From assembly GCA_947170195.1 (NCBI GenBank), contig CAMVSS010000002.1:1-54631 (forward strand): a DNA stretch of 54,631 nt, in the 5' to 3' direction. A model generated the notes under the pieces. It was given only the letters and a program-made list of their open reading frames with translations, was not told the DNA's origin and searched no databases. Positions 26,962 to 54,004 of this stretch are shown here, piece after piece. The position numbers and the translations under genes are program-made. Positions within the stretch are counted from its first letter, which is position 1, and every line of letters starts with the position of its first letter. The stretch is from an uncultured Treponema sp. Its GTDB lineage: Bacteria; Spirochaetota; Spirochaetia; Treponematales; Treponemataceae.

Positions 26962-29900
26962 TTATAATCCTCCCAATTCGAGAACCATTTCAATCTCGCC
27001 CTCGCTTCGCTTCATGCTACGCGAAATCTGGCTGACTGTCCAGCCACGGCGCTTGAGATCGATAATGGCGGCCTTATCCTTTGGCGAAAGCCTTTCTTCG
27101 GATGAAGGCATAGATGATGATGAACTTGGCGAATCCTGAGTTGAAATGCGCTCAAGAAGGTCAATTTTATCATCTATTTCTTTTGAAAGATTCAGAAGCC
27201 TTGTCTCGCTGTTTACGATTCCCTGACGAGAGTTCTTGACAGCTTCCGCCCTCTTTTCTGTCTCGTCGAGCAAGTTCTGCAGAGATGTGATTTTATCAAC
27301 AGCGTCATTGATTTTTCCGGCGTTATTGTTGATGAAATCAATTTTTCCCTGAATGTCTGAAATCGTTTCCGGCAGATTGTTTGCCTTGCGAGTTACATCA
27401 GAAAGACGGCTTTCGATATCCTTGAGGTTGTCGAAAGTGCTGTCAACTTCCTTGCTGACCTGATCAATCATCTCCTGTTTTTTCTCAAGACGGTCATAGC
27501 GTCCCGAAATATCACCAAGGGTTCGCTGGAAATCGCGGACTGTGAGCTGCATTGACTGAAGGTCGTCGCTCGTTGTCTGAAGCTCGCTGATCTTGTTGTC
27601 CATGCTGCTGCTCAGTTCTATAAGTCGCTCGAAATTTCTCTCCATTGAGTCGATTCTGTTTCGCTCGTTGTTGAACTGCTGGAGTTTTCCATCCATATCG
27701 TCATTCATCTTTTTGATGCTGGCGAAATGATTCTCAAGCTCGTTTGCGATTGTCTGATACTGATCTACGCGCGAAATATCGCCCTTAAGCTCAGCGATCT
27801 GATTCTCAAGCTGCGCCTTAAGCTCATCCGCACGCTGATAGACCTGCATCTGAGAAGCAAAAGCCTTGACCTGCTTGTCTATCTCGCTGAATTTAGTCTG
27901 CAGCTCCGTAGCGTCATTCTGCATTTTCATAACGCTGTCAGCCTGCTGAGAAGCGATCTGATCCTTCATAGCCTGAATCTGAGTTCTGATTTCGCGGAGA
28001 GTCTTTTCAGAATCAACATTCTGTTCCTTTACGCGGTTTTTAGTCTCCTCAATCATCTGCTCATAAATCTGCTGCTGCTCTTTTATGATTCTTTCAGATT
28101 CCTCTCTGTAGCCCGCAACAGAATCCTTTACGCGCTGAGAAAGTTCGTCTATATTGCCGGAAATTTCCTGCTGGCGGCTGATGGCATCTTTCTTGAATTC
28201 ATCGATGCTCTGAGCGAATTCGTTCTGCAGCTCCTCAAGCTTCTGCTCGGTACCAGCCCGAACATTTGAGAACTGAGTTTCGTAGAGAGTCTTTGCCTGA
28301 TCAAATTGCTGCTTAAGCTGCGTTCTCCATGAATTGAACTCGCCGACCATAGCGTCGATCGCATTTGTATTTGATTCGGAACGATTTTTTACGTCGGTCT
28401 CAAGTTTTGCGATATTGCCTTCCGTGTCCTTGAGGCTCTTGTTGAGAAGCTCGTTCAAGCGCTCGCCGTAAGTTTTGAGAGTTCCGCGGATGAACGAATC
28501 TGAATTCGCCGTTGCCGATGCGAGATCATTTCTGTTTTTCTCAGAGAAATCACGCATTTTCTGCTCAACATCAGCGATCTGCTTTTGCAAATCTTCCTGC
28601 GTCTTCTGAATGGCAACGCCGAAACGCTCCGAAGTCTCATGATTCTTTGACTGGATTGCGAGAAGTTTGTTCTTAAGCTCCTCCGCATATTTTGCCTCAA
28701 GCTCCCTGCGCGACTCCTCACCTTCAGAGGCAAGGACAGCGAGCCTGGAATCGAAAGTCTGCTTCCAAGATGAAAGATTTTCGTCGATTGCGTTGCTTCT
28801 GCGCTTCAAATCCTGACCGAAGTTCTCCTCGAAATCCTTGAGCGTTGCGCTGACATTGTTGCTTGCTGTCTGCTTTATGACGTTCAGAGAGTTTTCAAGC
28901 TCCGCGAGGCGGTTCTCGACGATCTTTGCGTCTTCCGCAAGCTTAGTCTGGAACTGACCATGACGAACCGACTGCTCCTGAATAAATTTATTGAATTCCT
29001 GAAGGACCTGCTCCTGCGTCTTCTGCAAAGCGCCGTGCAGTGAAGATTCAAGTGCATCGACATCAGCTCCCGTCTGCTCAAGCTTCTCAAAGCGGTATTC
29101 CATGTTCTTTCGGTAGCTCTCAAGCTGCTTGTCCACAACGCCAAGAAGCTCCGTCTGCTTTGAGTCGTATGCATCGGCGATATTCTTGAGCATATCCTTG
29201 AGCATCTTGTTGATGGAACTGATCTGCTCGTCTGACTGAGTTTTGAAACGCTGAAGTTCCTCGTTTGCAGCGACGACCGTATTGGTAATTTTTTTTGCGG
29301 CCTCAAGAGCATCAACCGTAGACTCATCAAGATTCTTCTTTACCTCTGAAAGCGCGCTGTCAACTTTCTGATTTGCGGCAGTTACGCGGCTGTCCACGCT
29401 GCTCTCAAGATTTGCGATTCGGCTCTTTACGTCAGCTTCGAGGGATGTGACTTTTCCGCCGACTTCTTCATGCAAGCTTACAACAGTATCCGTAACGTTT
29501 TTCTGGAGCTGTCCGCATTTTTCCGAGACAGACCGCTCGAGATTGCTTACAGTGTTTATTACCTCACTCTGCAAACCAGAGACCTTGTTCGAAACGTTCT
29601 CCTGAAGGGAAGAAACCTTTCCCTCAACCTCGTCCTGCAAGCCAGAGACAACCTGCTGGACTCCGTTCTGAAGCGCGCTGACTTTTGTATCAACATCTTT
29701 CTGAAGATTTATGACCTTTTCAGAAACATCGCTCTCAACCTTTACTACCTTACCATCAACAGCTCCCTGAAGCTTTTCCATTCGCTCATTGACACCGCTT
29801 TCGAGCGTATTCATGTTTGAAGTGACGGCAGCCTGCAAATCCATAACCTTCTGCTCAACGCCGTCAACAATTACTATAACCTTTGACTCAACGAGATTCT

Positions 29901-32577
29901 GAAGACCGCCGACCTTTGTCTCGACCGTATTCTGAAGACCGTCAACCTTTGAATCAACCAGATTCTGAAGTTCCGAAACTTTCTCGTTTACGCCGCCCTC
30001 AAGTGAAGAGACCTTGGAATCAACCATCTCCTGCAAATCGGAAACTTTCTGGGCGACACCGTTCTCAAGACCTGAGACTTTTTCGACAACAGACTGCTGG
30101 AGACTGTTTACTTTTTCTATTACACCGCTCTCAAGGCTGTTGACCTTAGAGCTGACAGCCTGCTGGAGATTGCTTACCTTTTCGTTCACGCCGTTTTCAA
30201 GGCCGCTGACTTTCGCAGTGACAGCCTGCTGCAATCCTGTAACCTTTGCATTTACGCCGTCCTCAAGCCCCGAAACTTTCTGATCGACAGAGCTTTCGAT
30301 TCCGCTGACCTTTGCGGCAACATTGTCCTCAATTCCACCAACCCGCGACTCAACCATATCGTTAAGATTTTCAACGCGGTCGGAAACATTTTTCTCAAGC
30401 TCGCTGACCTTTGAATCAACCGTGCTCTCAAGGAGATAAACTTTTTCGTTCACGCCGGACTCAAAACCGTTGACCTTTTCCTCAACCATATCTTTAAGCG
30501 ACTGAACTTTCTCATCGATTCCGCCGACAATTTCCTGAACCTTCGAATCGACATCAACATCAAGATTATTTACTTTTTCGATCACAAGATTCTTGATTTC
30601 ATTTACCTTGCTGTCAACAACGCCATCGATTCCCGTGACTTTTGAGTCAACCAGATTCTGAAGATTTGTGACCTTGTCCTCGACCATCTGCTGAAGGCCG
30701 TCAACCTTCTGGGTCATCTCGCCCTGAATTCCGCTGACACGACCATTTATGTCACGCTGAAGATCCGTAACCCGGCCCTCTACAGAGAGATTCAGATCCG
30801 TGACCTTTTTGTCAACTTCGTTCTGGAGGCTTGTGATCTTTGTAACGACGTCCTGCTGAATGTCGCTGACCTTGTCCTCAACACTGTTCGTAAGACCTGA
30901 GAATTTCTGAATGACGCCGCTCTGAAGGGCATTGAATTTTCCTTCCATCTCGCCCGTGAGATTTCCGATCTGAGACTCGATCGTGCTTGAAAGAGAAGTG
31001 ACTTTTCCGTCCGCTTCCGAAGAGAACGAGGATATCTTGTCCTGAACAGCAGAAATTTTTGAATTTATATCACCATGCATTCCGTTGATTTTAGCCTCAA
31101 CGTCCGTTTTGAACGCAGAAAGATGATTTTCTGAGATTTCCTGAAATTTCGAATATGCGACGGACTCTTTTGTGTCCACATCCTTGATCGTCTTCTCGTA
31201 AAGTTTTGCGTAGCGTTCCTGAATGCCCTGAATCTGCTTTCCCAAAGACTCCCGCAAAGACTCCAGCGTTTTGCCATTTCCGTTGACCTCTGCGGCAAGC
31301 TCTTTTGCAGTTTCCTTTGCCGTGCTGAGAGCTTCGGAAAGCATTTTCTTAAGCTCAGAATTTCCCGCATTGAATTCCTGATGAAGAGCGGCTGCTTTCT
31401 CCTTGACTGATTTTTCGAGCGCACCGACCTGAAGATTAACTTTTTCAGTAATTTCTGCACCACTCTGCTCAACAGAATTTTTGATTTCCGTAATATTTGA
31501 GTCAACATTTCCGCGGATATCAGCGATGTTAGACTCCACGCTTCCACGGATTTCTGAAATATTGCCGTCAACTGTTCCGCGAAGATTTTCGATATTCTTA
31601 AGGAAAGTCTGCTGAAAGTCATTTACGTTTGCTGAAAGTCCGTCCCTGATTTCCGTTATGCTCTGGGTCACGTTCTGCTGCAATGCCGCAACGGAATCAT
31701 TCGCAGAAGAAGAAACCTTTTCCACGTTCTGAACAAAATTTTTCTCGATCTCAGAAAGCTTTACGACGCTTTCCTTCTGCGCCTGATCAAGACGGCTGTC
31801 CAAGTGATCCGCAAGCTGTTTTGTCTGCTCGTCAATGACTTTAAGGACGCTGTTTTTGCGATTGTCGGCCTGCTCCGTCAGCTGGCGGAACGATTCATCT
31901 TCCAGATTTCTTGCGCGTTCAGCAGCCTGCGCATAAGCAGCCTTTATGTCGTTTTCGATTCTGCTCATTGCCTCATCAGTTTTCTGAGCTGCCGATGCGG
32001 ACATATCCTCAAGCGACTGCGCGCGCTCTTTGTACTGATTGAGAAGCTCAGTACCAATAAGCTTGAGGCTCTCGTTGTTGCGCTTTGCAAATTCGTTGTT
32101 GATTTGAGGAATATGATTTTCGATTTTCTGAACGGCCTTTTCCTGAGTATCAAGCCGTGCGTTGAGTTTGTCGATGATTGCAGATTCTTTTTTGAGCTGG
32201 AAAAGGTTCTGCTCAACTTTTTCTGTCATTTCCATCAGCTCGTTGAGGACTTTTCCGTAAGCGTCGATTTTTTCGGCTATTGAATCCACTGTCTCAAACT
32301 GTTTGTCAAATTCTGTGCTCGCATTGTCGAATTCTTCAATCTGCTTTTCGAGTCGTTTTACGGCAGCAACAGCCTGAGCCTGCCTTGTCTCAAGGTTTGC
32401 CGATATGGAGTCCAGCTTCTGCTCCTGGCCTTTGAAAAATTCATTAAAATCTTCAATGCGTTTGTCAGCAAAACGCTTTACTTTTTCCATGGAATTGTTG
32501 TCGCGGTCAATTTTTCTGACCACGATAACAACCGCAGACGAAACAATAATTGATATTAAAATAGAGACAGCAAGCAC
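26962..32577 (-). CDS. Giant membrane-anchored coiled-coil protein with hendecad repeats and C-terminal HTH-like segment
   Basis: 1871 aa; N-terminal TM (ILISIIVSSAVVIVV), long coiled coil including 50 consecutive 11-aa repeats, C-terminal DKAAIIDLKRRGWTVSQISRSMKRSEGEIEMVLELGG. Confidence 0.9.
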   Translation of the reverse strand: MLAVSILISIIVSSAVVIVVRKIDRDNNSMEKVKRFADKRIEDFNEFFKGQEQKLDSISANLETRQAQAVAAVKRLEKQIEEFDNASTEFDKQFETVDSIAEKIDAYGKVLNELMEMTEKVEQNLFQLKKESAIIDKLNARLDTQEKAVQKIENHIPQINNEFAKRNNESLKLIGTELLNQYKERAQSLEDMSASAAQKTDEAMSRIENDIKAAYAQAAERARNLEDESFRQLTEQADNRKNSVLKVIDEQTKQLADHLDSRLDQAQKESVVKLSEIEKNFVQNVEKVSSSANDSVAALQQNVTQSITEIRDGLSANVNDFQQTFLKNIENLRGTVDGNISEIRGSVESNIADIRGNVDSNITEIKNSVEQSGAEITEKVNLQVGALEKSVKEKAAALHQEFNAGNSELKKMLSEALSTAKETAKELAAEVNGNGKTLESLRESLGKQIQGIQERYAKLYEKTIKDVDTKESVAYSKFQEISENHLSAFKTDVEAKINGMHGDINSKISAVQDKISSFSSEADGKVTSLSSTIESQIGNLTGEMEGKFNALQSGVIQKFSGLTNSVEDKVSDIQQDVVTKITSLQNEVDKKVTDLNLSVEGRVTDLQRDINGRVSGIQGEMTQKVDGLQQMVEDKVTNLQNLVDSKVTGIDGVVDSKVNEIKNLVIEKVNNLDVDVDSKVQEIVGGIDEKVQSLKDMVEEKVNGFESGVNEKVYLLESTVDSKVSELEKNVSDRVENLNDMVESRVGGIEDNVAAKVSGIESSVDQKVSGLEDGVNAKVTGLQQAVTAKVSGLENGVNEKVSNLQQAVSSKVNSLESGVIEKVNSLQQSVVEKVSGLENGVAQKVSDLQEMVDSKVSSLEGGVNEKVSELQNLVDSKVDGLQNTVETKVGGLQNLVESKVIVIVDGVEQKVMDLQAAVTSNMNTLESGVNERMEKLQGAVDGKVVKVESDVSEKVINLQKDVDTKVSALQNGVQQVVSGLQDEVEGKVSSLQENVSNKVSGLQSEVINTVSNLERSVSEKCGQLQKNVTDTVVSLHEEVGGKVTSLEADVKSRIANLESSVDSRVTAANQKVDSALSEVKKNLDESTVDALEAAKKITNTVVAANEELQRFKTQSDEQISSINKMLKDMLKNIADAYDSKQTELLGVVDKQLESYRKNMEYRFEKLEQTGADVDALESSLHGALQKTQEQVLQEFNKFIQEQSVRHGQFQTKLAEDAKIVENRLAELENSLNVIKQTASNNVSATLKDFEENFGQDLKRRSNAIDENLSSWKQTFDSRLAVLASEGEESRRELEAKYAEELKNKLLAIQSKNHETSERFGVAIQKTQEDLQKQIADVEQKMRDFSEKNRNDLASATANSDSFIRGTLKTYGERLNELLNKSLKDTEGNIAKLETDVKNRSESNTNAIDAMVGEFNSWRTQLKQQFDQAKTLYETQFSNVRAGTEQKLEELQNEFAQSIDEFKKDAISRQQEISGNIDELSQRVKDSVAGYREESERIIKEQQQIYEQMIEETKNRVKEQNVDSEKTLREIRTQIQAMKDQIASQQADSVMKMQNDATELQTKFSEIDKQVKAFASQMQVYQRADELKAQLENQIAELKGDISRVDQYQTIANELENHFASIKKMNDDMDGKLQQFNNERNRIDSMERNFERLIELSSSMDNKISELQTTSDDLQSMQLTVRDFQRTLGDISGRYDRLEKKQEMIDQVSKEVDSTFDNLKDIESRLSDVTRKANNLPETISDIQGKIDFINNNAGKINDAVDKITSLQNLLDETEKRAEAVKNSRQGIVNSETRLLNLSKEIDDKIDLLERISTQDSPSSSSSMPSSEERLSPKDKAAIIDLKRRGWTVSQISRSMKRSEGEIEMVLELGGL
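29368..31017 (-). repeat. 33-bp-period coding repeat array encoding 50 hendecads
   Basis: Consensus xVxxKVxxLxx, e.g. GVNEKVSNLQQ/AVSSKVNSLES/GVIEKVNSLQQ/SVVEKVSGLEN/GVAQKVSDLQE; array boundaries placed by hand from the translation. Confidence 0.85.
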
Positions 32578-32602: not shown

Positions 32603-33274
32603 TTATTTTATCATCATGTCCGTAAACTTTCGATAGCTCGAAAACACGATATCAGCTTCTCTCACACTTTTTTTCAAGATTTTTTTCAGAGGCGACGCAA
32701 TTATCGCGCTCTTCATTCCGGCAAGTTTTGCCCCCCTCACATCAAAATGAACGCTGTTTCCGACGTAAAGTATTTCCTCAGGCTTTACATCAAGCGCAAT
32801 TGCCATGATGCCGAACGGATATTTTGAAGGCTTCAGCGCACCGATTTCTTCTGAACCGAGCACGGCATCACAATACGGAAGAACCCCCCAGACATTTCCC
32901 TTCTGTTCCGGAGGAAAATCTGACAGCAGGGCGATTTTATATCCGGCTTCCTTGAGAGCTTTGAATGTCTCAAAGACATATTTAAAAGAATGTATTCGCT
33001 CAAAAAATGGCTTGAGACCGTCGTAAACGATTTGCTTTATCAGAGCCTTCGCATCGGCGATTCCGCAACCGAGCTCCTCCGCAAGAAGACGAGCCTGATA
33101 TTCATAAAAATCAGGAAGAGGCGCCGTATGATGAAGGATCTTGCGGACACGGCTAAAATGCAGGTAAAAACGCATATGCTTAATCACGTACGGAATAAGC
33201 CGCCAATAGAGACTAAATGATGGATATAGAGTTCCGTCGATATCGAAAGCGACGGCTTTTATATTCTGCAACAT
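32603..33274 (-). CDS. HAD family hydrolase
   Basis: KAVAFDIDGTLYPS (motif I), IALLSDFPP (motif II), GALKPSKYPFG (motif III), ILYVGNSVHFDVRGAKLAGM (motif IV). Confidence 0.9.
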   Translation of the reverse strand: MLQNIKAVAFDIDGTLYPSFSLYWRLIPYVIKHMRFYLHFSRVRKILHHTAPLPDFYEYQARLLAEELGCGIADAKALIKQIVYDGLKPFFERIHSFKYVFETFKALKEAGYKIALLSDFPPEQKGNVWGVLPYCDAVLGSEEIGALKPSKYPFGIMAIALDVKPEEILYVGNSVHFDVRGAKLAGMKSAIIASPLKKILKKSVREADIVFSSYRKFTDMMIK

Positions 33275-33395: not shown

Positions 33396-34529
33396 CTATT
33401 TCTGAATTGTGTAGGCAAAACTTGCTGTGACAGTTCCGCTTCCAGACGTAAAACGCCACTGAGAGATTTGCGCGACGACTTCGCTTCTGACCCGCGACGG
33501 CAAAGTCGAAGGGATATTGATTCCACCGGCGAGGACGGAACCATCCGCGCTGACCAAAAAAGTGATCTCAACGCTTCTCGTAGCATCCACCTGTGCGGCG
33601 GCCTCTTTCGACAGAACGATCACCGGAGACTTCGGATTGAGGATCGCGCGGGAGCTACCATCGGACATCTGGAACAAGAATTTTCCGTCCGAAGATGTTC
33701 CGCCATGCACGTTCACCGTTGACTTTACGCCGTTGCTGTTGTTCGAAACTACGGCGCTTCCGATCTGACCGAGCGCAGCCGATGTCGTGCCAGAGGCAGT
33801 TCCGTTTTTTGAGTTCGAGTTTGAGCTTCCAGACACGCCCTGAGTCCCGGAGACAGAAGCTGCGGATCCGGACGAGCCAGAAAGAGAACTTTCCGCGCTC
33901 GGTGCGACGGCAGTTCGGCTCGCAGACGAAGAAGATTTCTGGGTTTGCGCCGGAGAATCAGCGAACAGCGCGTCAAAATCGGCGGCACTCACCGTCTTTT
34001 TTGAGGAAGAGCTTGTGTTTTTCTGGAAAGCCGCCATAGGATCAGCCTGAAGGACAGGCTCATTAGCCGGCTTAGCAGCAGCTTTTCCAGCTGGTTCATT
34101 AGCCGAAGCCCTGTCCGAGGCGTTAGCTGGCTTCGGGACCGGCGCAGGGGCTGGAGCCGAGGCGGAGGTGGCGGAATCGGCAGCTCTGGTCCTGCTGGAA
34201 GAAGTCGCTTTTGAAGCAGCCGCAGGAGCATCGCTTGGCTTTGCGTTCGCCGGGGCAGCCGAACTTGCGGATGCGCTCGCCGGAGAAGTTTTTGCCGGAG
34301 AAACACTCTCTGCGATTGCAGCAGATTTTGTCTCGGACGAAGAAGCTTCGGTCAAGCTTGCATCACGCGAAACATGGGCAGGAGCTGAATCAAGGCGAAT
34401 CTGAACCGTCTTGAATTTCTTCGGCTTCATAAAAAGCGCGTACAGGGAGAAAAACAGCAGAATAAACGTCCAGATTGCCAGAGTTCCCAAGAATCCGCAT
34501 GTGGAACTTTTTCGCTCGAATTCTCTCAT
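33396..34529 (-). CDS. TonB-like energy transducer with Ala/Ser-rich linker
   Basis: Single N-terminal TM (LAIWTFILLFFSLYALFM), about 200-aa low-complexity A/S/P linker, C-terminal RSVEITFLVSADGSVLAGGINIPSTLPSRVRSEVVAQISQWRFTSGSGTVTASFAYTIQK. Last gene of an ExbB-ExbD operon. Confidence 0.78.
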   Translation of the reverse strand: MREFERKSSTCGFLGTLAIWTFILLFFSLYALFMKPKKFKTVQIRLDSAPAHVSRDASLTEASSSETKSAAIAESVSPAKTSPASASASSAAPANAKPSDAPAAASKATSSSRTRAADSATSASAPAPAPVPKPANASDRASANEPAGKAAAKPANEPVLQADPMAAFQKNTSSSSKKTVSAADFDALFADSPAQTQKSSSSASRTAVAPSAESSLSGSSGSAASVSGTQGVSGSSNSNSKNGTASGTTSAALGQIGSAVVSNNSNGVKSTVNVHGGTSSDGKFLFQMSDGSSRAILNPKSPVIVLSKEAAAQVDATRSVEITFLVSADGSVLAGGINIPSTLPSRVRSEVVAQISQWRFTSGSGTVTASFAYTIQK

Positions 34530-34933
34530 CGTTCAGTCGTCCTGAGATTTACAGAAACAAAATCTTCTTTGCGAAGCTCGTCAAAAATTTTTACGATTGT
34601 TCCATTTGTGACATTTTCGTCGGCCTCAACCGTAACCGGATATTCATCCTTTGCTTTTCCGCCGGTATCAAAATTCGAAAGGAGATTTCCGATTGAAGAA
34701 ATCGAAGTCTCCTCATCATTGAACCATATCTTTCCATCGCTCTGAACCGTAATGGTTATTCCTGCGACGCCCTCCCCTTGCGCAGTCGTGCTGTGAGGAA
34801 GATTAACGTTTATCGCCGGAAGAATCGCAAAAGTGGTGGAGACCAGAAAGAAAAGAATCAGCTGAAAAACGACATCTATCATCGGCGTGAGATCCACGTT
34901 CACGCCACGCTTTTTTCTTCGAGAAACTTTCAT
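34526..34933 (-). CDS. exbD: ExbD/TolR family biopolymer transport protein
   Basis: RGVNVDLTPMIDVVFQLILFFLVSTTF; TolR/ExbD TM with catalytic Asp. Confidence 0.92.
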   Translation of the reverse strand: MKVSRRKKRGVNVDLTPMIDVVFQLILFFLVSTTFAILPAINVNLPHSTTAQGEGVAGITITVQSDGKIWFNDEETSISSIGNLLSNFDTGGKAKDEYPVTVEADENVTNGTIVKIFDELRKEDFVSVNLRTTER

Positions 34934-35553
34934 CAGCCAAGCCTTCCGATTATTTTCAAAATCAGATTTGTTGAAGAAGATTCCATTGCGGAAATCAGCT
35001 TGTCAGACTTCCGAACCAGATAGTTGTTGAATATCAGAGACGGAATGGCAACAAAGAGACCTGCGGCCGTAGTAACAAGAGCTTCCGAGATCGCACCTGC
35101 CAGAAGAGCCGGATCGCCCATCGTTCCGCCGGCACCGAGCACACCGAAAGCCTTGATGTTGCCGGTTACAGTTCCAAACAGACCGAGCAAGGTAGAAATG
35201 TTTGCGATTGTTCCCAAAAGAGTCAGCCAATGCTCAAACTGAGGAACAACGCTGTCCATCTCGCACTGAACCAGCTCCCTCATATCATTTTCCGAGAGAT
35301 TGCGGCATTCGATGGCTTTTTTTGCAACCTGAGCAAACGGAGTTCCCGCAGAAACGCAGAATGCCATAGCTGCAGAAAAATCTTTTTTCGCCATAGCTGC
35401 TTCAAGATTTTTTCTAAACTTAGCATCCCTTTTTTCCACAGAGCTAAAATAAACACATCTTTCGATAATCACGTAAGTTGCAAAAAGACCGCAAATTACG
35501 ATCGGAATAATCAGAACTCCACCGGATTTCAAAAAATCAATCATCAAAAACAC
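34933..35553 (-). CDS. exbB: MotA/TolQ/ExbB proton channel family protein
   Basis: LTLLGTIANISTLLGLFGTVTGNIKAF...ALLAGAISEALVTTAAGLFVAIPSLIFNNYL. Confidence 0.92.
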   Translation of the reverse strand: MFLMIDFLKSGGVLIIPIVICGLFATYVIIERCVYFSSVEKRDAKFRKNLEAAMAKKDFSAAMAFCVSAGTPFAQVAKKAIECRNLSENDMRELVQCEMDSVVPQFEHWLTLLGTIANISTLLGLFGTVTGNIKAFGVLGAGGTMGDPALLAGAISEALVTTAAGLFVAIPSLIFNNYLVRKSDKLISAMESSSTNLILKIIGRLG

Positions 35554-35559
35554 CTCTAT

Positions 35560-37266
35560 TTAAATTTGAAATTTTACCAGCACTTTCGCACAGCCGGCCT
35601 TTTCTATGTAGTCAGAATCAGCATATTTTCTGGTCGTCCGCCTGACTAATTTTATAGCATCGTCGACTTCCAGGGCAACGCTGACAGCCGGAATAATCTC
35701 ATATTCTGCCCATGCGCCCAGGTCCGGACATTTATCGCTTCCAGCCCCGAATGCGACCTTCGCGGATGTTCCCGCGCTCCATTTCTGGCTTTCTGGATAC
35801 ACGGCAGCCTGGGCGTATATGCAATGGCGGTCCTCAAGAACAGGAACATCCTTCCAATGCGATTTCCAGCCCGCATTGAGCTTTACGATCGAAAATTCCG
35901 CGGAAATTTCTGCTTCGCTCGAAACATCGGTTCTGCTCGAGGTCAAATTATCAGACTCATAATTTCCGATTGCATACTGACCGCTCGCCCGACGATTCTT
36001 TTTGTCATAATCGACGTCCCATACTCCGTTTCCGAAAGCGGTTTTTCTAAATTCTCCGCCGCCGCTCAGAATCAGGACAGGAGCAACGGGAATAGAAATT
36101 CTTCCCTGGGCAAACCAATCTGTCGTCTCAAGCGGAATGCAGGTCGCGTAAGCAAAAGTATATTTTCGCTCAAGCTCGCTGATTTTTTCCTGATATGAGT
36201 CGAGACCGCCCTTCGCGATAATTTTCAGATCGCCAAAATCAAAAAATGATGTTCTGACTTCCGTTCCCGCCGTAAACGCAGGGATGACATCGCGTTTTCC
36301 TGTCGCGCTACCGATTATCGCAGAACCGTCGGCAAAAACTTTCAGGAAGCTGTTATGCCATGATCCGGCAAGAGTAAACTGCCCGCGATGACTGTGGTGC
36401 CTGTGCCATGAGCCATCGATTTTTCTAAGCTGTTTTGCAGTCTCAAGGCTTCCCTGAAATCCGTATTTTCCAGTCAAACTAAAATCAAGCCCAAAAGCAC
36501 CGCCCCAACCGACGCTCAAAAAAGGATCGGCCGTAACTGTCGAAACCGCCGCCTCAGAATCAGTGTAGCGCAAGCCGCCCGAAAAACGCTGCCCGTAACG
36601 CCTGTACCATTCGCCGTCAGAGCCGTAGGCGATATAAAAACCTTTCGGAAGATTCCAATGCGCGCTGTACGATGCCGACACATCATGCTTTACGACATCG
36701 GTATAAGAATTTGATTTTGACTGCAATCCGTCATCATCGGTAACATAGCTGGAAGAAAAACTGTGCTCGCAGATGTCGCCATAGTAATTTCCGCTTGCCC
36801 CCACTCCTGTCTCGCGCGCAAAAAATCCCTTCTCCGCTTTTTTCCCGGAAAAGCCTTCCTCGCCCTCGTGAAAGAAATTCAATCTGAACGGAAAACGACC
36901 CGAAGTCCGGTAGACAGAGACATCAGCATCGAAGCAAAGCGGGTAGCCGCCGCCAATCTCTCCATCGGCAAACACAAGCTGCTCCTTCGGATTCTGATCA
37001 ACCGCATTTTTTGCAGGGGCCTCAGATTTCTCAACTTCTGTAAGACGAGGCAGACTGACTTTCGGAGAATCCGATTCGGGCATTATCGCGCGATAATCCG
37101 GAACGGAATCATTTCCGGCCGTAAAAGTATCTCCAGAAATAATAGTCGTCACGTCAGGAAGCTCAATGTTTTCCTCGGATTTTTCTTCCCTGGTTTGAGC
37201 AAAAATCGCGCTCGAAAAAACTGATATTAATAGAACAAAAAATGCAGATTTCAAATTAATCTTCAT
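35560..37266 (-). CDS. Exported beta-barrel-like (putative outer membrane) protein
   Basis: Signal peptide (FFVLLISVFSSAIFAQ), many alternating aromatic/polar strands, C-terminus KVLVKFQI compatible with an OMP final strand. Confidence 0.65.
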   Translation of the reverse strand: MKINLKSAFFVLLISVFSSAIFAQTREEKSEENIELPDVTTIISGDTFTAGNDSVPDYRAIMPESDSPKVSLPRLTEVEKSEAPAKNAVDQNPKEQLVFADGEIGGGYPLCFDADVSVYRTSGRFPFRLNFFHEGEEGFSGKKAEKGFFARETGVGASGNYYGDICEHSFSSSYVTDDDGLQSKSNSYTDVVKHDVSASYSAHWNLPKGFYIAYGSDGEWYRRYGQRFSGGLRYTDSEAAVSTVTADPFLSVGWGGAFGLDFSLTGKYGFQGSLETAKQLRKIDGSWHRHHSHRGQFTLAGSWHNSFLKVFADGSAIIGSATGKRDVIPAFTAGTEVRTSFFDFGDLKIIAKGGLDSYQEKISELERKYTFAYATCIPLETTDWFAQGRISIPVAPVLILSGGGEFRKTAFGNGVWDVDYDKKNRRASGQYAIGNYESDNLTSSRTDVSSEAEISAEFSIVKLNAGWKSHWKDVPVLEDRHCIYAQAAVYPESQKWSAGTSAKVAFGAGSDKCPDLGAWAEYEIIPAVSVALEVDDAIKLVRRTTRKYADSDYIEKAGCAKVLVKFQI

Positions 37267-37292
37267 ATCTCAAAATCTCCTATACTCGCAGC

Positions 37293-40103
37293 TTACTGAA
37301 CAAGTTTTTTTGCTTCTTTCGTATAACTGCTTTTTGGGTAGAGTTTTTTCATCTCGTTGTATGCGGCCTTTGAGTCTCCGTAGAGACCTGCCGCGTCAAA
37401 CGCCTCAACAGCACCGTAAAGCGCTCTCTCAGCAGAACCGTTGTCGCCGCTCTGCCGAGCAAAAAGAGCCGCTTTCAAATACATGTCGGCAGCCTTTTTG
37501 TTCTCTCCGCTGTTTCTAAACTTCGCCGCGAGATTTATTGCGCTCTGAGCATCGGTTACGTCAGCTTCGGAAAGCTCCGGCTTTTTCCCGCTCATCTTCA
37601 GGGCGATTTCCTCCGATTTTTCCCCAATTCCATCGCTGACAGCCTGTTCGCCGTACTCTTCAAGCATTTTCTGAGCCATCTCGTAAGCATTTTTCAGCTC
37701 ACCGTTCGATTCGTACAAATCGATCAGATTTTTCTGGGCCGCATAACGATATGAGGTAGAAAAATCTGACTCTGCGAGCTGGAGATAGCGAAGGACAGCA
37801 CGGTCGCGATCCCCGATGCGGGCCAGACAATCAGCAGAAAAATAGACTGCCGCGTAAAAATATTTTCCCTCAGGCCATCTTTTCCCATAATTCTCAAAAA
37901 TCACGCGGGCACCGGCAAAGTCTTTTGTCATGTACTTAAGCTCGCCACGCCTGTAAAAAGCATCCTCCGCAAAGACCGATGCATTTTTTCCTGAAGAGGA
38001 AGCGACGTCCTCAAAGTAAGAATCTGCCGATTTAAAATCTTTTTTTTGTACAAAAATCTCCGCGGAGCGGAACTTGCATTCATATCCGAAAGAATCTTTC
38101 TTTGCGACATACGGAGAAAGCAATCTCAAAGCCTCGTCGAATTTCTGCGAATCAGAATAAATTCCTGCGCACAATATTACAGCCGCGTGTTTTTCGTCCT
38201 CGCTCCGAGCAGCCGCCACAGCAGAAAGCGCGCGTGAAGCAGCCACATCATATTTCTTTGAAAAAGAAGCGCAGCGCGCGCTGGTAATCAGGGCAGGGAA
38301 CAAAAGGTGATTATCAGGATTTTCGAGCGTGAATTTGTCGAGAGATTCCCGGGCACGCAGATATTCTTCCAGCTGATACTGGCAATACCCGAGATAAAAA
38401 AGCGCGTAAGCGGAGTGCTCTGAGTTCAGAGTTTTTGAGAAAACAACCTTATCAAAGAGGATTTCCGCCTCCATCCAGCGTTTTTGATTGAAAGAAGCCA
38501 GCGCCGAAAGATACAAAGCCTCGTCTCCGTCCGCAAGGGAAGCGAGAGCCTTTGACGAATCATACATCGCGGATTTGAGCAAGGTTCGCGAGTAATCAAG
38601 ATATCCGTCGTTGTTCAGCTTTCCACCCTTTTTGAGCGAAGCAAATACGGCTTCTGATTTAGAGTATTTTCCGTCCTCCGCGAGGGCTTTTGCGTACAAA
38701 GTCATGAGCTGCGAGTCAGACTCAACTGAAAGCTTTCTTTTTGGGGCAAGATTTTTCTCATACTGCTCGATCAGCGCGTAAGATTCCGCATAACGTCCGT
38801 CCGAATAAAGAGCCAGAGCAGACCAATACCACGCCTCTTTCAAAACATCCGCGTTTTTTGAATCCAGAGCGGATTTTGCCCAAGACAGGCACGAATTCCA
38901 GTCCTTTTTATAAGCATAAAATCTTGCGAGCAAAACCGAAATGTACTGACTGATTTCCGATCCGTCTTCAGCACCAGAAATCTTGAATCCGTCCGAAAGG
39001 ATTTTGATAGCTTCATCGCAGCAGTCTTTTCCGCCGGATGCCATTACAATCTGAGAGCGGTACACGCTGGCAAGACAAAGCTCATAATCCGAAGCGGATT
39101 TTTCAGCCTCGTCAAAATAAGAAGAAGACTTTTTAAGATCGCCTGCATTAAAGGCATCTATCGCAAGCCGCGTCCAGAATTCCGCGAGCAGCTTTGGAAA
39201 CTGGGCGAGCCGCCCCTGAGCGCGCGCGATGACATCCCCAGGTTCGCCGCCGACCTCTTTTTTATGCTCGGAAGAGACGGCATACGCTTTCTTCATCGCT
39301 TCGGCGGCAATGAAAGGCGGCGCATTCTCTATAACGTCACAATAAATCTTGTAGGCCAGCGCATAATTCTTAAGCTCTCGCTGAGCATCTCCGCGCAAGA
39401 GCAGCAAAGAATACAAAGCATTGCCAGAAATGGAATTGTCACCGGAAGAAAAAAGACTCTCGAACTGCCTCACAAGGGAATCAGTTTTCTCAAAAAGCAG
39501 GCAGTCATTGTAGCACACGGCAAGATTTACGGCGCATTCCTCAAAATCTGGCTGGGAAAATTTTTCTCCGTTGGAAACGACATATTCGAGCAGGGGGATA
39601 GCTTTCTCCTCGTTGTTTTCCTCACTTCTCAGATTTATGTAAGTTCTGGCGCCCCATAAAATCGCGTCGGAATAGTAATCTTTTTTTCCGTCCTGCCTCT
39701 TCACGCCGGAGAACAAACGCGCGCTCTCAAAAAAATATTTCTGAGCATCCTCAAAGTTTTTCTGACCAAAATAGCACCGGCCGATCCAAAAGTTCCTGGC
39801 AGATTTTAAATATGAGCTTACCGAGTCTTCAGATTTGAGATTATATTTTTTGAGCAGAGAAAGAGCATCGTCAGTCCGTCCCATTCTGAAAAGACTCTCA
39901 CCCTCGTAAACCGCCGCCTTAACAGCGGTAAAAGAAGAGACGTCGCCCTTCAGGATTTCCTCTGCATAGCGGACGACGCCGGGATAAAAGCCAGCCTTGT
40001 AGCTTGACTCAAGCCTGGCAGAGAGCTGGACATCAGACGAGAAACATTCATGCGTCAACAAAAACAGTGGTGCAAGCAAAAAGAAGGTTCGTTTCATACG
40101 CAT
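37293..40103 (-). CDS. Large exported TPR-repeat protein
   Basis: 936 aa with signal peptide and many TPR-like helical pairs (e.g. ALFYLGYCQYQLEEYLRARESLDKFTLENPDN; SKAAYNEMKKLYPKSSYTKEA). Confidence 0.85.
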   Translation of the reverse strand: MRMKRTFFLLAPLFLLTHECFSSDVQLSARLESSYKAGFYPGVVRYAEEILKGDVSSFTAVKAAVYEGESLFRMGRTDDALSLLKKYNLKSEDSVSSYLKSARNFWIGRCYFGQKNFEDAQKYFFESARLFSGVKRQDGKKDYYSDAILWGARTYINLRSEENNEEKAIPLLEYVVSNGEKFSQPDFEECAVNLAVCYNDCLLFEKTDSLVRQFESLFSSGDNSISGNALYSLLLLRGDAQRELKNYALAYKIYCDVIENAPPFIAAEAMKKAYAVSSEHKKEVGGEPGDVIARAQGRLAQFPKLLAEFWTRLAIDAFNAGDLKKSSSYFDEAEKSASDYELCLASVYRSQIVMASGGKDCCDEAIKILSDGFKISGAEDGSEISQYISVLLARFYAYKKDWNSCLSWAKSALDSKNADVLKEAWYWSALALYSDGRYAESYALIEQYEKNLAPKRKLSVESDSQLMTLYAKALAEDGKYSKSEAVFASLKKGGKLNNDGYLDYSRTLLKSAMYDSSKALASLADGDEALYLSALASFNQKRWMEAEILFDKVVFSKTLNSEHSAYALFYLGYCQYQLEEYLRARESLDKFTLENPDNHLLFPALITSARCASFSKKYDVAASRALSAVAAARSEDEKHAAVILCAGIYSDSQKFDEALRLLSPYVAKKDSFGYECKFRSAEIFVQKKDFKSADSYFEDVASSSGKNASVFAEDAFYRRGELKYMTKDFAGARVIFENYGKRWPEGKYFYAAVYFSADCLARIGDRDRAVLRYLQLAESDFSTSYRYAAQKNLIDLYESNGELKNAYEMAQKMLEEYGEQAVSDGIGEKSEEIALKMSGKKPELSEADVTDAQSAINLAAKFRNSGENKKAADMYLKAALFARQSGDNGSAERALYGAVEAFDAAGLYGDSKAAYNEMKKLYPKSSYTKEAKKLVQ

Positions 40104-40135
40104 TCAGGAATACTTTCCGTCCAAAAACCGAAGAC

Positions 40136-41512
40136 CTACTGCGGGAAGAACCTGTCCGAAGAAAGCACTCGGGTCAGATGCACATAGCAATCTGGATAAC
40201 TGCTCACAAACTGATTGAGTGTCATCTCCTCGCCGTTCTCAAAGACCGTGCACGTAAACTGTCCATTCTGATCAAAATACGGCAGAATCACAGCACACTT
40301 GTCAAAAACATAATACTCAGGTTTTCCTTTTGATGGCGGCACGCGACGGCGCACAGCGGCAAGATAAAAGAAAGTCGGTTCGGTCACGCCAAGAACATAA
40401 AGAACAGGGCGCAGCTTTTTTATGGCATATCCGGTGTTGTTAAGATAACCGGCGGTCAAAGTAATTCCCTTTTCATTAACCTCCGCACTAAATGGTTCTA
40501 TATTTACATCAACACCTGAATCTTCATAAAGATACGTTTTTCTTGTCTGAACTGAAAGTCTTGCGGCAGCCAGATTGCGAGTCCAGTCAAGAGTAAAAAA
40601 AAGCGCTTCCTTCTCATTCAAAATTCCGGAATATCCAAGCGGATTATGCTGAACCGTAGGGAGCAGAAGCGGATTCAAAAAGAGACCGGAACCAGTAATC
40701 GGCTCGACGAGGCCGTCAACCACCCATTTCAAGAACCCTGCATCATCCATCGAAAGTCGCTTTCCGTCCTTCTCGCGCTCATCAACCTCGCGAGGCTTTC
40801 CGTCGGAAATTCTGACCGGCTTTCCGTTCTCGTCATACGTCGCGTCCCATTCATAAAAGATTTTCGAAAGCTTTTTTCTGATCACACCGACCATCTGAAG
40901 CTTCTGGTGATACTGATCAGTGTGGATTTCCGCATATTTCCATGGGAGCGATTTCTGAGTAAGGGAAAGCACCTCCGCGAACGATGTCAGATAGAACCTC
41001 TCAAAAGGGATGCCGACAGGAACCGAGCGGGCTGCATAACAGCCGTCAATCACGTAGTCAGCGAGCGTCTTGTTTCCGTCCGGTGAAAACTGAACGTACA
41101 CATCGCTGTCCGCGACAAAATAATACCTGATCCTGACAGGCTTTTCCGTAACAGAATCGCGCATCAATATCCACGAACCCGCGGCATCAGCCGAATATTC
41201 GCTGACAGTATCGCGCTTCATCCCGTTCTGAGTATAAAAATCAACAGACAAAAAAGATTCCGGCGCAACGATGACCGAAAAGATTCCGTCCGTTTCCTCA
41301 AGCCTTATCTGAAATTTCTCACCAACAGAATTAGTTCGAATCTCGTTTCTGTTCATCCGAAGCTCGGAAAGCGGCTTATAAAACCAATTCTCCGCAATCT
41401 GCTTGCGTATTGCCGATGAATCCGGCACCCCGAACTTGTTGTAGTCAGCAAAAACTGCGGCGGAACACAAAAAAACAGCCGCGCATACAAAAATCTTTCT
41501 AAGCAATTTCAT
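40136..41512 (-). CDS. Exported protein of unknown function
   Basis: 458 aa with signal peptide (KIFVCAAVFLCSAAVFA); no family recognised by eye. Confidence 0.75.
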   Translation of the reverse strand: MKLLRKIFVCAAVFLCSAAVFADYNKFGVPDSSAIRKQIAENWFYKPLSELRMNRNEIRTNSVGEKFQIRLEETDGIFSVIVAPESFLSVDFYTQNGMKRDTVSEYSADAAGSWILMRDSVTEKPVRIRYYFVADSDVYVQFSPDGNKTLADYVIDGCYAARSVPVGIPFERFYLTSFAEVLSLTQKSLPWKYAEIHTDQYHQKLQMVGVIRKKLSKIFYEWDATYDENGKPVRISDGKPREVDEREKDGKRLSMDDAGFLKWVVDGLVEPITGSGLFLNPLLLPTVQHNPLGYSGILNEKEALFFTLDWTRNLAAARLSVQTRKTYLYEDSGVDVNIEPFSAEVNEKGITLTAGYLNNTGYAIKKLRPVLYVLGVTEPTFFYLAAVRRRVPPSKGKPEYYVFDKCAVILPYFDQNGQFTCTVFENGEEMTLNQFVSSYPDCYVHLTRVLSSDRFFPQ

Positions 41513-49429: not shown

Positions 49430-52400
49430 ATGGAAACAGCAAATACAGTATTTACTCCGGCAGTTACACCTATCAGAATTGGTATCGATGTCGGCTCCAC
49501 AACAGTTAAAGTCGTTTGTATAGACGAAAACGACAAAATGATTTATGGAGATTATCAGCGTCACCGCGCCGATATCCGCAATACGATCATCACTGTTGTA
49601 ACACAGGCTTTGAATGAGATCGAAAAATCTGCAAAACTTGGCGATAAGCATACTGTTTCCGTAAAAGTCACCGGTTCAGGCGGATTATCCGTATCTCAGT
49701 GGCTCGACATTCCTTTCATTCAGGAAGTAGTCGCGGCAACCACAGCCGTCAAAAAACTCATTCCACAGACAGATGTAGTAATCGAGCTCGGCGGTGAGGA
49801 TGCAAAAATCACATATTTCACTGGCGGCGTTGAGCAGCGAATGAACGGTACTTGTGCCGGCGGTACGGGTGCATTCATCGACCAGATGGCAGCCCTTCTC
49901 GAAACTGACGCACCAGGTCTCAACAAGCTTGCAGCAGGATGCAAGCAGATTTACCCGATCGCAGCACGATGCGGCGTTTTCGCAAAGACAGACGTTCAGC
50001 CTCTCATCAATGAGGGCGCGCGACGAGAAGATATCGCCGCTTCTATTTTCCAGGCAGTAGTCAACCAGACAATCTCAGGTCTTGCGTGCGGCAAACCGAT
50101 CCGCGGTCATGTTGCATTTCTCGGAGGTCCGCTCCACTTCCTCGACCAGCTCCGGGTTCGCTTTATAGAAACCCTCAAGCTCAAAGATGACGAAATCATC
50201 GTTCCGGAAGACAGCCAACTTTTCGTAGCTGCCGGTTCTGCTTATTCAGCAGAAAAAGTCTGCAATCCGCTCTCTTCTTCAATGCCAAAAAGCTTCCCTA
50301 CAATCAAAGATTTCCGCGACTCGCTCAAGAATCTTGAAGGAGCAGAGCTCAACGAAGTACAGCGTCTCGATCCGCTTTTCGTCGATGAAGAAGATCTGGC
50401 AAAATTCCGCGCACGTCACGGCGAGGACAAGGCGAAACGCGCTGATCTGAACGCCGAACATGGCGCACTTTTCTTGGGTCTCGATGCAGGCTCAACGACC
50501 ACAAAAGCAGTCCTCATCAACAAAAAGGGCGAAATTCTGTGGGACTTCTACGATGTAAATGCGGGAAATCCTGTCGATCTGGCAGTCCGCGTTCTCAAAG
50601 ATTTGTATAAAATCCTGCCAAAAGACTGCTACATCGCGCGCGCTGTTTCTACAGGTTACGGCGAAGCACTTTTCCAGGCAGCTTTGGGCGTTGATGCGGG
50701 CGAAGTTGAAACAATCACTCACTACCGAGCCGCAGAATTCTTTGTCCCTGGCGTTGAGTTCCTTCTCGACATCGGCGGTCAGGACATGAAGTGCCTCCGA
50801 ATGAAGGACGGTGCAATCACTTCTATTCAGCTCAACGAAGCATGTTCAGCAGGATGTGGTTCATTCCTTGCAAACTTCGCAAACTCAATGAACCTCGATA
50901 TCCGAGAATTCTCAAAACGCGCACTTCTCGCTAAAAAGCCGGTCGATTTGGGTTCACGATGTACAGTCTTCATGAACAGCCGCGTAAAACAGGCTCAGAA
51001 AGAAGGTGCCACAATCGATGACATTTCGGCAGGCCTTTCTTATTCAGTAATCAAAAACGCTCTTTTCAAGGTAATCAAACTCCGCCGCGCTTCAGAAATC
51101 GGCACAAAGGTTGTCGTTCAGGGCGGCACATTCTACAATGATGCGGTTCTCCGTGCATTTGAAAAAATCGCGGGCGTAAATGTATTCCGACCTGATGTTG
51201 CGGGTCTCATGGGCGCATACGGTTCGGCACTCATCGCTTACGACCAGTGGTGCGACCTCACTGCTCCAAAACCGGGGCAGGAAAAGAACTGGACTCCGCC
51301 GAAGATCGTTTCAAACATCGCAACTCTTGAGCAGCTCGAATCATTCAAAGTCGATCTGGAACTCACACGATGCGGCGGCTGTCAGAACAACTGTCTTCTC
51401 ACAATCAACACATTCACTACAAACGGTGCAAAACGCCAGTTCATCACGGGCAACCGATGTGAAAAGGGATTGGAGCGTCATCAGCTCAAAGACGAAAACG
51501 CTCAGACAGTTGACGGCTCAAACAAAGAAAACACAGGCGTTGAGTCAACAGGCTTCGAATTGCCGAACCTCTTCGACTGGAAGTACAAACGACTCTTCAA
51601 CCACTACATTCCGCTCAAGCCGGAAGAAGCTCCTATGGGCTCAGTCGGAATTCCGCGCGTCCTCAACATGTACGAGAATTATCCGCTCTGGTTCACCGTA
51701 TTCACAAAACTCGGCTTCCAGGTAAAAACTTCTCCACGCTCAAGCCGAATGATTTACGAGCGCGGAATCGATTCTATTCCATCAGAGTCGGTCTGCTACC
51801 CTGCAAAAATCTCTCACGGTCACATGGAATCGCTCCTCAAGATGGGATGCAAATTCATATTCTATCCGTGTATTCCTTACGAAAAAGTCGAGGACAAGGG
51901 CGCAGGAAACCACTACAACTGTCCTGTCGTAACTTCATATCCAGAAGTCCTCAAGCACAACCTCGACTCAATCAACGAGGCAAAAGACCTTCTCTTCATG
52001 AATCCGTTCTTGCCGATTTATGATTTGCCTCGCCTGCGCGAGCGAGTCTACGAAGAGCTTCACAAGCACTTCCCGACTCTGACAAAAGAGCAGGTTTTTG
52101 AAGCTGTTGACGAGGGTTGGAAAGAACAGGAACAGTTCAAGATTGACACCCAGCGGGCAGCCGAAGAAGCATTGGAGCAGCTCGTCGTTACGGGCGGTAA
52201 CGGTATCGTACTTGCAGGCCGACCATATCACCTCGACCCGGAAATCAACCACGGTATCCCGGAAATGATTCACGGTCTCGGTCTTGCAGTATTCACGGAA
52301 GATTCAGTTGCGCACTTAGGCTCAATCGAACGTCCGTTGCGAATCATCGACCAGTGGACATACCACAACCGATTGTACCGCGCGGCAAATTTCGTATCCG

Positions 52401-54004
52401 GCATGCCGAACCTCGAAATCGTTCAGCTCACTTCATTCGGATGCGGTCTCGATGCAGTAACCGCTGATCAGGTTGACGAAATCATGAAGTCAAAGAGCCG
52501 CATGTACACGCTCATAAAGATTGACGAAGGAAGCAACCTCGGTGCAGTGCGAATCCGAATCCGCTCGCTCATCGCGGCAGTAAAAGCTCGCCAGCGCAAC
52601 CGCCGAAAGGTCGAGACAAAGAGCGCGGCATACCAGCGAGTAATCTTCACGGAAGAAATGAAAAAAGAATACACGATTCTCTGTCCGCAGATGTCGCCTA
52701 TTCACTTCCGCCTGTTGCAGAAAGCATTCCAGTACTCAGGTTTCAACTTTGTCGTGCTTGACTCGGTTGACCCGAAAGCCGTTGATACAGGTCTTAAATT
52801 TGTAAACAACGATGCATGCTACCCTTCAATCCTGGTAACAGGCCAGCTCATTGAAGCGCTTGAATCAGGAAAATACGATATAAACAAAACTGCAGTCATC
52901 ATCTCACAGACTGGCGGTGGCTGTCGTGCCACGAACTACATCGGATTTATCCGCCGTGCTTTGAACGACGCGGGCTGGAGCCATGTTCCGGTCATCTCGC
53001 TCAACGCATTGGGCATGGAAAAGAATCCTGGATTCACATTCACTCCGGGAATGGTTCACAAGGCAATGATGGCAGCTTTCATCGGCGACCTTCTCATGCG
53101 CGTTCTTTACCGCGTTCGACCATACGAAGCCGAGCCAGGAAGCGCAAACCGCCTGTACGAAAAATGGAACGCAAAAGCCGAAGAAATGCTCAAATCGAAC
53201 TCAATCTTCAAATATCGCAGGTTGATTCGCGGCATCGTGCGTGACTTTGACCGCCTGCCAATTCTTCCGATCAAAAAACCTCGCGTCGGTGTCGTCGGCG
53301 AAATTCTCGTAAAATTCCATCCGACAGCAAACAATGACATGGTAAATGTAATCGAAAAAGAGGGCGCGGAGTGCGTAATGCCGGATCTGATGGACTTCTT
53401 GTTCTACACATTCTCGGACGGCGTTTTCCGCTACAAAGAACTCGCATTCCCGAAATCAGAAGCAAAGAACGGAAAGCTGGCAGTCTGGGCACTCGAGCTT
53501 TACCGAAGGTACATGAAAAAATGCCTGCGAAAGAGCCGCAGATTCGAAGCTCCTAACTCAATCTGGGATATGATGAAGAGCGTAGAAGGATTGATTCAGA
53601 CAGGAAACATCTCAGGCGAAGGCTGGTTCCTGACCGCAGAGATGGTCGAGCTTATTCACTCTGGCGCACCGAGCATTGCTTGTGTACAGCCGTTCGCATG
53701 TCTCCCGAACCACATCACCGGCAAGGGTATGATAAAAGAGCTGCGACGAAGATTCCCGGGATCAAACATCAGCGCGATCGACTACGACCCGGGTGCTTCA
53801 GAAGTAAACCAGCTCAACCGACTCAAGCTTCTTTTGAGCAACGCCCCAATCGGCAAAAACCCGGACGAGCTTCCTAACGGCAAAATCTGGACGAAAAAAG
53901 GCGAAGTAGAGCCGATCATCCAGTACGCAAGCGGTGGCGCACAGTTCGTGGACAACGACCCGATTGACGCAAAGAACTCAGTTCCTGCGACTACAGCGGT
54001 GTAA
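49430..54004 (+). CDS. Acyl-CoA dehydratase activase-related fusion protein (two BadF/BcrA-type ATPase domains plus DUF2229/2-hydroxyglutaryl-CoA dehydratase-like region)
   Basis: GIDVGSTTVKVV...GGEDAKITYF...GTCAGGTGAFIDQMA and GLDAGSTTTKAVLI...GGQDMKCLRM...ACSAGCGSFLANFA; then RCGGCQNNC, SVCYPAKISHGH, YPCIPYEK, NDACYPSILV, GGGCRATNY. Confidence 0.93.
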   Translation: METANTVFTPAVTPIRIGIDVGSTTVKVVCIDENDKMIYGDYQRHRADIRNTIITVVTQALNEIEKSAKLGDKHTVSVKVTGSGGLSVSQWLDIPFIQEVVAATTAVKKLIPQTDVVIELGGEDAKITYFTGGVEQRMNGTCAGGTGAFIDQMAALLETDAPGLNKLAAGCKQIYPIAARCGVFAKTDVQPLINEGARREDIAASIFQAVVNQTISGLACGKPIRGHVAFLGGPLHFLDQLRVRFIETLKLKDDEIIVPEDSQLFVAAGSAYSAEKVCNPLSSSMPKSFPTIKDFRDSLKNLEGAELNEVQRLDPLFVDEEDLAKFRARHGEDKAKRADLNAEHGALFLGLDAGSTTTKAVLINKKGEILWDFYDVNAGNPVDLAVRVLKDLYKILPKDCYIARAVSTGYGEALFQAALGVDAGEVETITHYRAAEFFVPGVEFLLDIGGQDMKCLRMKDGAITSIQLNEACSAGCGSFLANFANSMNLDIREFSKRALLAKKPVDLGSRCTVFMNSRVKQAQKEGATIDDISAGLSYSVIKNALFKVIKLRRASEIGTKVVVQGGTFYNDAVLRAFEKIAGVNVFRPDVAGLMGAYGSALIAYDQWCDLTAPKPGQEKNWTPPKIVSNIATLEQLESFKVDLELTRCGGCQNNCLLTINTFTTNGAKRQFITGNRCEKGLERHQLKDENAQTVDGSNKENTGVESTGFELPNLFDWKYKRLFNHYIPLKPEEAPMGSVGIPRVLNMYENYPLWFTVFTKLGFQVKTSPRSSRMIYERGIDSIPSESVCYPAKISHGHMESLLKMGCKFIFYPCIPYEKVEDKGAGNHYNCPVVTSYPEVLKHNLDSINEAKDLLFMNPFLPIYDLPRLRERVYEELHKHFPTLTKEQVFEAVDEGWKEQEQFKIDTQRAAEEALEQLVVTGGNGIVLAGRPYHLDPEINHGIPEMIHGLGLAVFTEDSVAHLGSIERPLRIIDQWTYHNRLYRAANFVSGMPNLEIVQLTSFGCGLDAVTADQVDEIMKSKSRMYTLIKIDEGSNLGAVRIRIRSLIAAVKARQRNRRKVETKSAAYQRVIFTEEMKKEYTILCPQMSPIHFRLLQKAFQYSGFNFVVLDSVDPKAVDTGLKFVNNDACYPSILVTGQLIEALESGKYDINKTAVIISQTGGGCRATNYIGFIRRALNDAGWSHVPVISLNALGMEKNPGFTFTPGMVHKAMMAAFIGDLLMRVLYRVRPYEAEPGSANRLYEKWNAKAEEMLKSNSIFKYRRLIRGIVRDFDRLPILPIKKPRVGVVGEILVKFHPTANNDMVNVIEKEGAECVMPDLMDFLFYTFSDGVFRYKELAFPKSEAKNGKLAVWALELYRRYMKKCLRKSRRFEAPNSIWDMMKSVEGLIQTGNISGEGWFLTAEMVELIHSGAPSIACVQPFACLPNHITGKGMIKELRRRFPGSNISAIDYDPGASEVNQLNRLKLLLSNAPIGKNPDELPNGKIWTKKGEVEPIIQYASGGAQFVDNDPIDAKNSVPATTAV

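Follow-up and report, generated by a model that had tools for sequence, protein, structure and literature searches.

Five minus-strand genes, B-C-D-E-F, within the analysed 54,631-nucleotide stretch of Treponema DNA (the window) probably encode a dedicated TonB system that acts mainly on a receptor-fold pore without a plug (protein C) and includes a TPR protein (B) as partner. The fold of C, the absence of a plug, the TonB-box-like motif and its sharing with receptors, the gene linkage and the relation of the transducer F to TonB were established computationally. This reading is favored by a gene order recurring in 13 families, structural matches of C that are all receptors, a conserved box in a disordered leader, the occurrence of the same box in true receptors, the finding of a single ExbD and the identity of F as a TonB.

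Gene block and its extent

The six minus-strand ORFs described in the first-pass annotation were recovered at the same coordinates and lengths, with intergenic distances of 32, 26, 6, -1 and -4 nt. We refer to them as A (458 aa), B (TPR protein), C (barrel), D (ExbB), E (ExbD) and F (TonB-like) (Table 1). Pfam matches among the window ORFs were obtained for ExbD (1.8e-23), MotA_ExbB (2.4e-30) and TPRs, and the Pfam search of A, C and F from the window gave nothing significant.

Table 1 Features of the gene block and its neighbors in the window
Feature	Position	Strand	Basis
A: exported protein, 458 aa, function unassigned, ancestral neighbor	40136..41512	-	genus and phylum loci
B: exported TPR protein, 936 aa	37293..40103	-	Pfam TPR_6 5e-17; conserved beside C
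C: outer-membrane barrel, 568 aa, receptor fold without plug	35560..37266	-	AlphaFold, Foldseek
C, TonB-box-like motif, residues 34-45 (IELPDVTTIISG)	37132..37167	-	conservation; common to true receptors
C, second conserved leader motif, residues 52-64	37075..37113	-	pairwise identity 0.53
C, barrel domain, residues 99-568, 22 strands	35563..36972	-	AlphaFold model
D: ExbB/TolQ-family proton channel subunit	34933..35553	-	PF01618 2.4e-30; solved TolQ/ExbB relatives
E: ExbD/TolR-family subunit	34526..34933	-	PF02472 1.8e-23; Asp20 invariant in alignment
F: TonB-like force transducer	33396..34529	-	profile to solved TonB; orthologues over TonB_C cut-off
G: HAD-family hydrolase, conserved neighbor, 121 nt after F	32603..33274	-	Pfam; loci of relatives
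I: coiled-coil protein, 1871 aa, N-terminal TM segment, conserved neighbor	26962..32577	-	loci of relatives

Do these six genes form a single unit, as had been proposed? The distribution of A contradicts this: A is present in 141 of 146 same-genus genomes and C in 93, and A outlasts B-F. In the neighborhoods of 40 loci, the genes B-C-D-E-F are usually found, or missing, all together at the site flanked by A and the HAD gene G, and at locus L082 A and G directly adjoin. Since A, often together with G, is retained where B-F has been lost, the module consists of the five genes B-C-D-E-F, and A, G and I are old neighbors; A as an obligate member was rejected, as it persists in genomes and loci lacking B-F. 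Replacement genes in cassette-free loci were also considered as diverged parts of the module and rejected, as they include genes for an elongation-factor-G-like GTPase and for a Cys/Met metabolism enzyme. The gene that usually precedes A in relatives is a BcrAD/DUF2229 activase, and its assignment as TamB was rejected; an activase-like gene of this type lies in the window at 49430..54004, on the opposite strand to A and ~ 8 kb away.

The AlphaFold model of A is confident (pLDDT 92), and none of its PDB matches was significant, the weak ones including protein-glutaminase. In the outgroups (L294-L302, L305, L307), A carries NCSGF.KW and a conserved His, a papain-like pattern, and in the genus of the window these residues are replaced (DDAGF). 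The identification of A as an NlpC/P60 enzyme was rejected, being without Pfam or PDB support.

Protein C has a receptor fold and no plug

The AlphaFold model of C has a mean pLDDT of 81, with values mostly above 90 in the barrel and mostly below 50 at residues 23-94; the strands of the barrel were counted by eye on the model, residues 240-255 being taken as one interrupted strand. A PDB sequence search with C gave nothing useful. In a Foldseek comparison of the model with the PDB, TonB-dependent receptors made up all of the best 50 matches listed, with TM (query) values of 0.48-0.60 and E-values between 4e-14 and 5e-11. Thus, the barrel fold suggested for the 568-aa protein is supported, whereas the contrast drawn between this barrel and TonB receptors is not, its nearest solved folds being TonB-dependent receptors and the receptors of the genus having its box. 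C has no Pfam match to the plug domain PF07715, and in its predicted model residues 23-94 are disordered and the barrel starts at residue 99; instead of a plug, there is only an N-terminal leader of ~ 75 residues, predicted to be disordered. The first-pass annotation was right that this is not a standard TonB-receptor locus; C combines a receptor fold minus the plug with a TonB-box-like leader.

C shares with the TonB-dependent receptors (BtuB, FepA/PfeA, FrpB) the 22-strand barrel fold and, at the sequence level, the N-terminal TonB box, and their dependence on ExbB-ExbD-TonB would extend to it. Unlike them, it has no plug domain or Pfam match, and its operon also holds the motor and a giant TPR protein. 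With 22 strands and no plug, such a pore would be expected to leak if nothing else shuts it.

The leader motif is shared with plug-bearing receptors

The most conserved stretch of C is the leader motif, with the consensus I.LPDVTTVV.G: pairwise identity is 0.71 over residues 34-45 but falls to 0.36 across the barrel and to 0.19 across the linker. The second conserved motif, residues 52-64, is possibly a binding site for B. In loci L085-L087, a C-type leader is found on a different, shorter barrel-like protein, and the leader thus behaves as a portable element.

An important question is whether the box is restricted to C. Besides C itself, a search of the genus with the C leader gave weak matches to plug-bearing receptors, at their N-termini and immediately ahead of the plug. 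The genome of the window contains an orphan receptor of this kind (G000:C24) with the box DIVLPEVVTYI, which was also found by an independent unbiased scan (A9, E 1e-4); the earlier statement that no canonical TonB-dependent receptor is visible holds for the window but fails for the genome. In the loci read, box-bearing receptors have no adjoining motor genes; other Treponema receptor types come with their own ExbBD-TonB, and one type has a DDVIVV-like box. Another Treponema receptor type, of ~ 840-860 aa, was seen at L211-L214 and L261, most of these loci having ExbB, a tandem pair of ExbD genes and one more gene, for a small membrane protein.

The start could be read in 61 receptors; 46 of the 50 from genomes with C were scored as having the box, against 3 of the 11 from genomes without it (Fisher p 2e-5, kinship ignored). 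Regarding the three exceptions, the call in G012 arises from a chance resemblance within the plug, G029 has D-E-F, and a contig end truncates the G120 locus. On the receptor tree, with box calls curated by eye, G029 counted as cassette-bearing and G120 left out, there are six cassette changes and five independent pairs, in ~ 4 of which the box agrees and in none of which it opposes (p 0.125). Of the sister genomes G113 and G141, one has the cassette and the box and the other has neither. The box is missing from nearly all cassette-free lineages, although the number of independent losses that can be counted is small. In six genomes (G005, G012, G040, G046, G113 and G131), we observed a receptor homologue without the box and found no ExbD; these are apparently TonB-type receptors without a motor.

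The corresponding box of the outgroup genomes, EPEIVLPSVVLEIED, is found on C and on no other protein, which makes C the likely original client. We rejected the idea that the box is a general tag carried by many proteins, as it occurs on one barrel per genome plus receptors. A 2052-aa predicted lipoprotein (L182:6159-12317) has an N-terminus weakly resembling the C leader (E 9e-4); its gene lies, as we read the sequence, upstream of a penicillin-binding-protein-like gene.

From its linkage, we infer that B is a partner of the barrel or motor. Two single cases touch B: at L316 (G402) the locus has no B and the motif of the C leader is gone, although D-E-F is kept, and at L086 both B' and the leader are kept (no ExbD was found in this genome, which is 83% complete). 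Together, they hint at a relation between B and the leader.

Motor and transducer

D and E pass the Pfam ExbB and ExbD cut-offs, and a conserved Asp (Asp20) lies in the ExbD helix. E is the only ExbD found in the genome of the window (~ 80% complete); a second ExbB candidate, at C190, was judged from its N-terminal sequence to be a probable MotA and set aside. The best model scores of D and E are to TolQ and TolR, below cut-off, and B matches the NCBIfam model YbgF (5e-12), also below the cut-off of the model. A TolQ/TolR-type motor beside a YbgF/CpoB-like TPR gene recalls Tol-Pal, and the module might accordingly be regarded as a Tol-like envelope tether, with D-E-F corresponding to TolQ-TolR-TolA, B to CpoB and C to an outer-membrane anchor replacing TolB-Pal, a proposal that also agrees with the absence of TolB_N (PF04052) from the genome of the window and from 56 of the 59 relatives examined for it. 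We consider it improbable, as the box is common to true receptors and the repeated losses of the module in Treponema would not be expected of an essential tether; the module further differs from Tol-Pal in having no TolB found, a barrel instead and a transducer box common to receptors.

F has one TM helix, a long disordered linker and a C-terminal TonB-like domain. The first match of its family profile is a solved TonB (E 0.0014), and its orthologues in other families and classes exceed the Pfam TonB_C cut-off, the window F itself having no Pfam match; by the profile to the solved structure and the Pfam matches of the orthologues, F is a TonB. The transmembrane His of TonB is absent from F in the order of the window, where Trp or Phe takes its place (Trp in the window), and is kept by nearly all outgroup F proteins. 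At two loci without B and C (L088:9097-10809 and L090:8644-10767), the TonB-like proteins contain extended charged repeats (EAKRIAEEKR), similar to the helical domain of TolA.

The myxobacterial Agl-Glt/Nfs machinery comprises a TolQR-type motor, a TPR protein, a barrel and a TonB-like protein. With this similar part list, and with a weak match of the F C-terminus to AgmX/PglI (E 0.003), the module could be imagined as a relative of that machinery, moving surface components; the AgmX/PglI match reaches 17.5 bits against a cut-off of 40, the GltJ match falls in the low-complexity linker of F, no further Glt component came up in searches directed at other genes, and we regard this relationship as highly improbable.

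Distribution in Spirochaetota

The whole-genome searches covered Spirochaetota, the phylum of the window. C was found in at least 62 of 393 genomes with the barrel profile (A1) and in at least 81 of 393, from 43 of 167 genera, with a broader profile (A9), both counts being lower bounds because at most three first-look candidates were scored per genome; named carriers include Treponema bryantii and T. parvum. The gene order B-C-D-E(-F) recurs in 13 families, other classes included (f1, f3, f8, f10, f11, f14, f16, f17, f19, f20, f21, f24 and f42; the order in f3 was taken from L295, the second f3 locus ending at a contig end), and such an arrangement is thus not due to chance. A, G and I flank the module in most families of the class to which the window belongs and are absent as flanks in f24 and f42. 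The proposed tie of the barrel and TPR protein to ExbBD-TonB therefore holds as gene linkage across the phylum. Separation of the barrel from exbBD, named beforehand as evidence against this tie, occurs in a few genomes (L091/G038, G056), but in most the linkage is kept.

At L091, C lies away from the remaining module genes. L088 and L090 have D-E-F, or D-E and a TonB-like gene, without B-C, and L263 resembles them, as judged from ORFs alone and not from profile scores; L314 and L086 (the 83% complete genome) have B-C without D-E. The occasional unlinking, as at L091, and the lack of a plug would suit an ordinary passive porin whose linkage to motor genes is incidental. The conservation of gene order in 13 families and a leader box that is more conserved than the barrel and common to receptors leave this explanation very little probability.

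Within Treponema, the module has been lost repeatedly. T. pallidum has been described as lacking TonB-dependent uptake (PMC7521688).

Discussion

How might such a module work? In the dedicated TonB system that we favor, D and E would convert proton flow into motion of F, which would bind C at the box in its disordered leader. B is probably seated under the barrel as a cap or adaptor and likely binds C, possibly via the second leader motif; force on the leader would then open or close a wide pore for large cargo. In Treponema, the same TonB would also serve the orphan plug-bearing receptor with the same box. The reading is weakened by loci with D-E-F without B-C or B-C without D-E, by the box loss at L316, by the number of independent pairs (only five), by the missing transmembrane His of F and by the leakiness of a plugless pore.

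Another question concerns the direction of transport. With the same parts list, C could instead take up a large nutrient, such as a glycan or peptide, under the power of TonB, while B binds the substrate or gates the pore, as in RagAB/SusCD. C has a receptor fold and a TonB box, the true importers of the genus carry the same box, and in RagAB a 22-strand barrel is likewise combined with a lid made of TPRs (PMC11817032). We nevertheless think import unlikely: C lacks a plug, the module occurs in spirochaetes of many families, and in the 13 families with the conserved order its neighbors include no conserved gene for a surface lipoprotein, a binding protein or a permease. Since no substrate-specific import gene is seen traveling with the module, we lean slightly toward export or assembly of an envelope component by the dedicated TonB system.

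Several known systems offer comparisons. Oar of Myxococcus xanthus mediates TonB-dependent secretion of PopC and provides a precedent for secretion by a TonB-powered barrel with a receptor fold like that of C; Oar has a plug and an N-terminal extension, and a plugless Oar variant did not support secretion (PMC6434023). RagAB resembles the C-B pair in combining a barrel with a TPR protein under TonB control; the lid described there, RagB, has four TPRs, whereas B has 936 aa and an ordinary signal peptide, and C has no plug (PMC11817032). The vWA force-transducer clusters resemble the module in uniting a TolQR-like motor, a TPR gene and a transducer in one cluster, with function unassigned; their transducer ends in a vWA domain and F in a TonB-like domain, the section consulted mentions no barrel, and the main text of the paper names no spirochaetes (PMC12204202). 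In the open-access papers searched, we found no description of the cluster in spirochaetes.

The combination of a plugless pore with a TonB motor points to an undescribed kind of powered outer-membrane gate. More tentatively, and as a proposal we advance without yet favoring it, this gate may be ancient, phylum-wide and proton-powered, with TonB pulling the disordered leader, and not a folded plug, of a receptor-fold pore whose periplasmic side is capped by the giant TPR protein. TonB action is generally explained by plug remodeling. If the proposal is true, a conserved relative that has the TonB box but no plug would allow the transmission of force to be studied apart from the opening of a plug, so that the question could be tested. 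Spirochaetes, with their poorly understood envelope, would gain a defined energized pore. The joint loss of cassette and box provides a natural means of probing TonB specificity.
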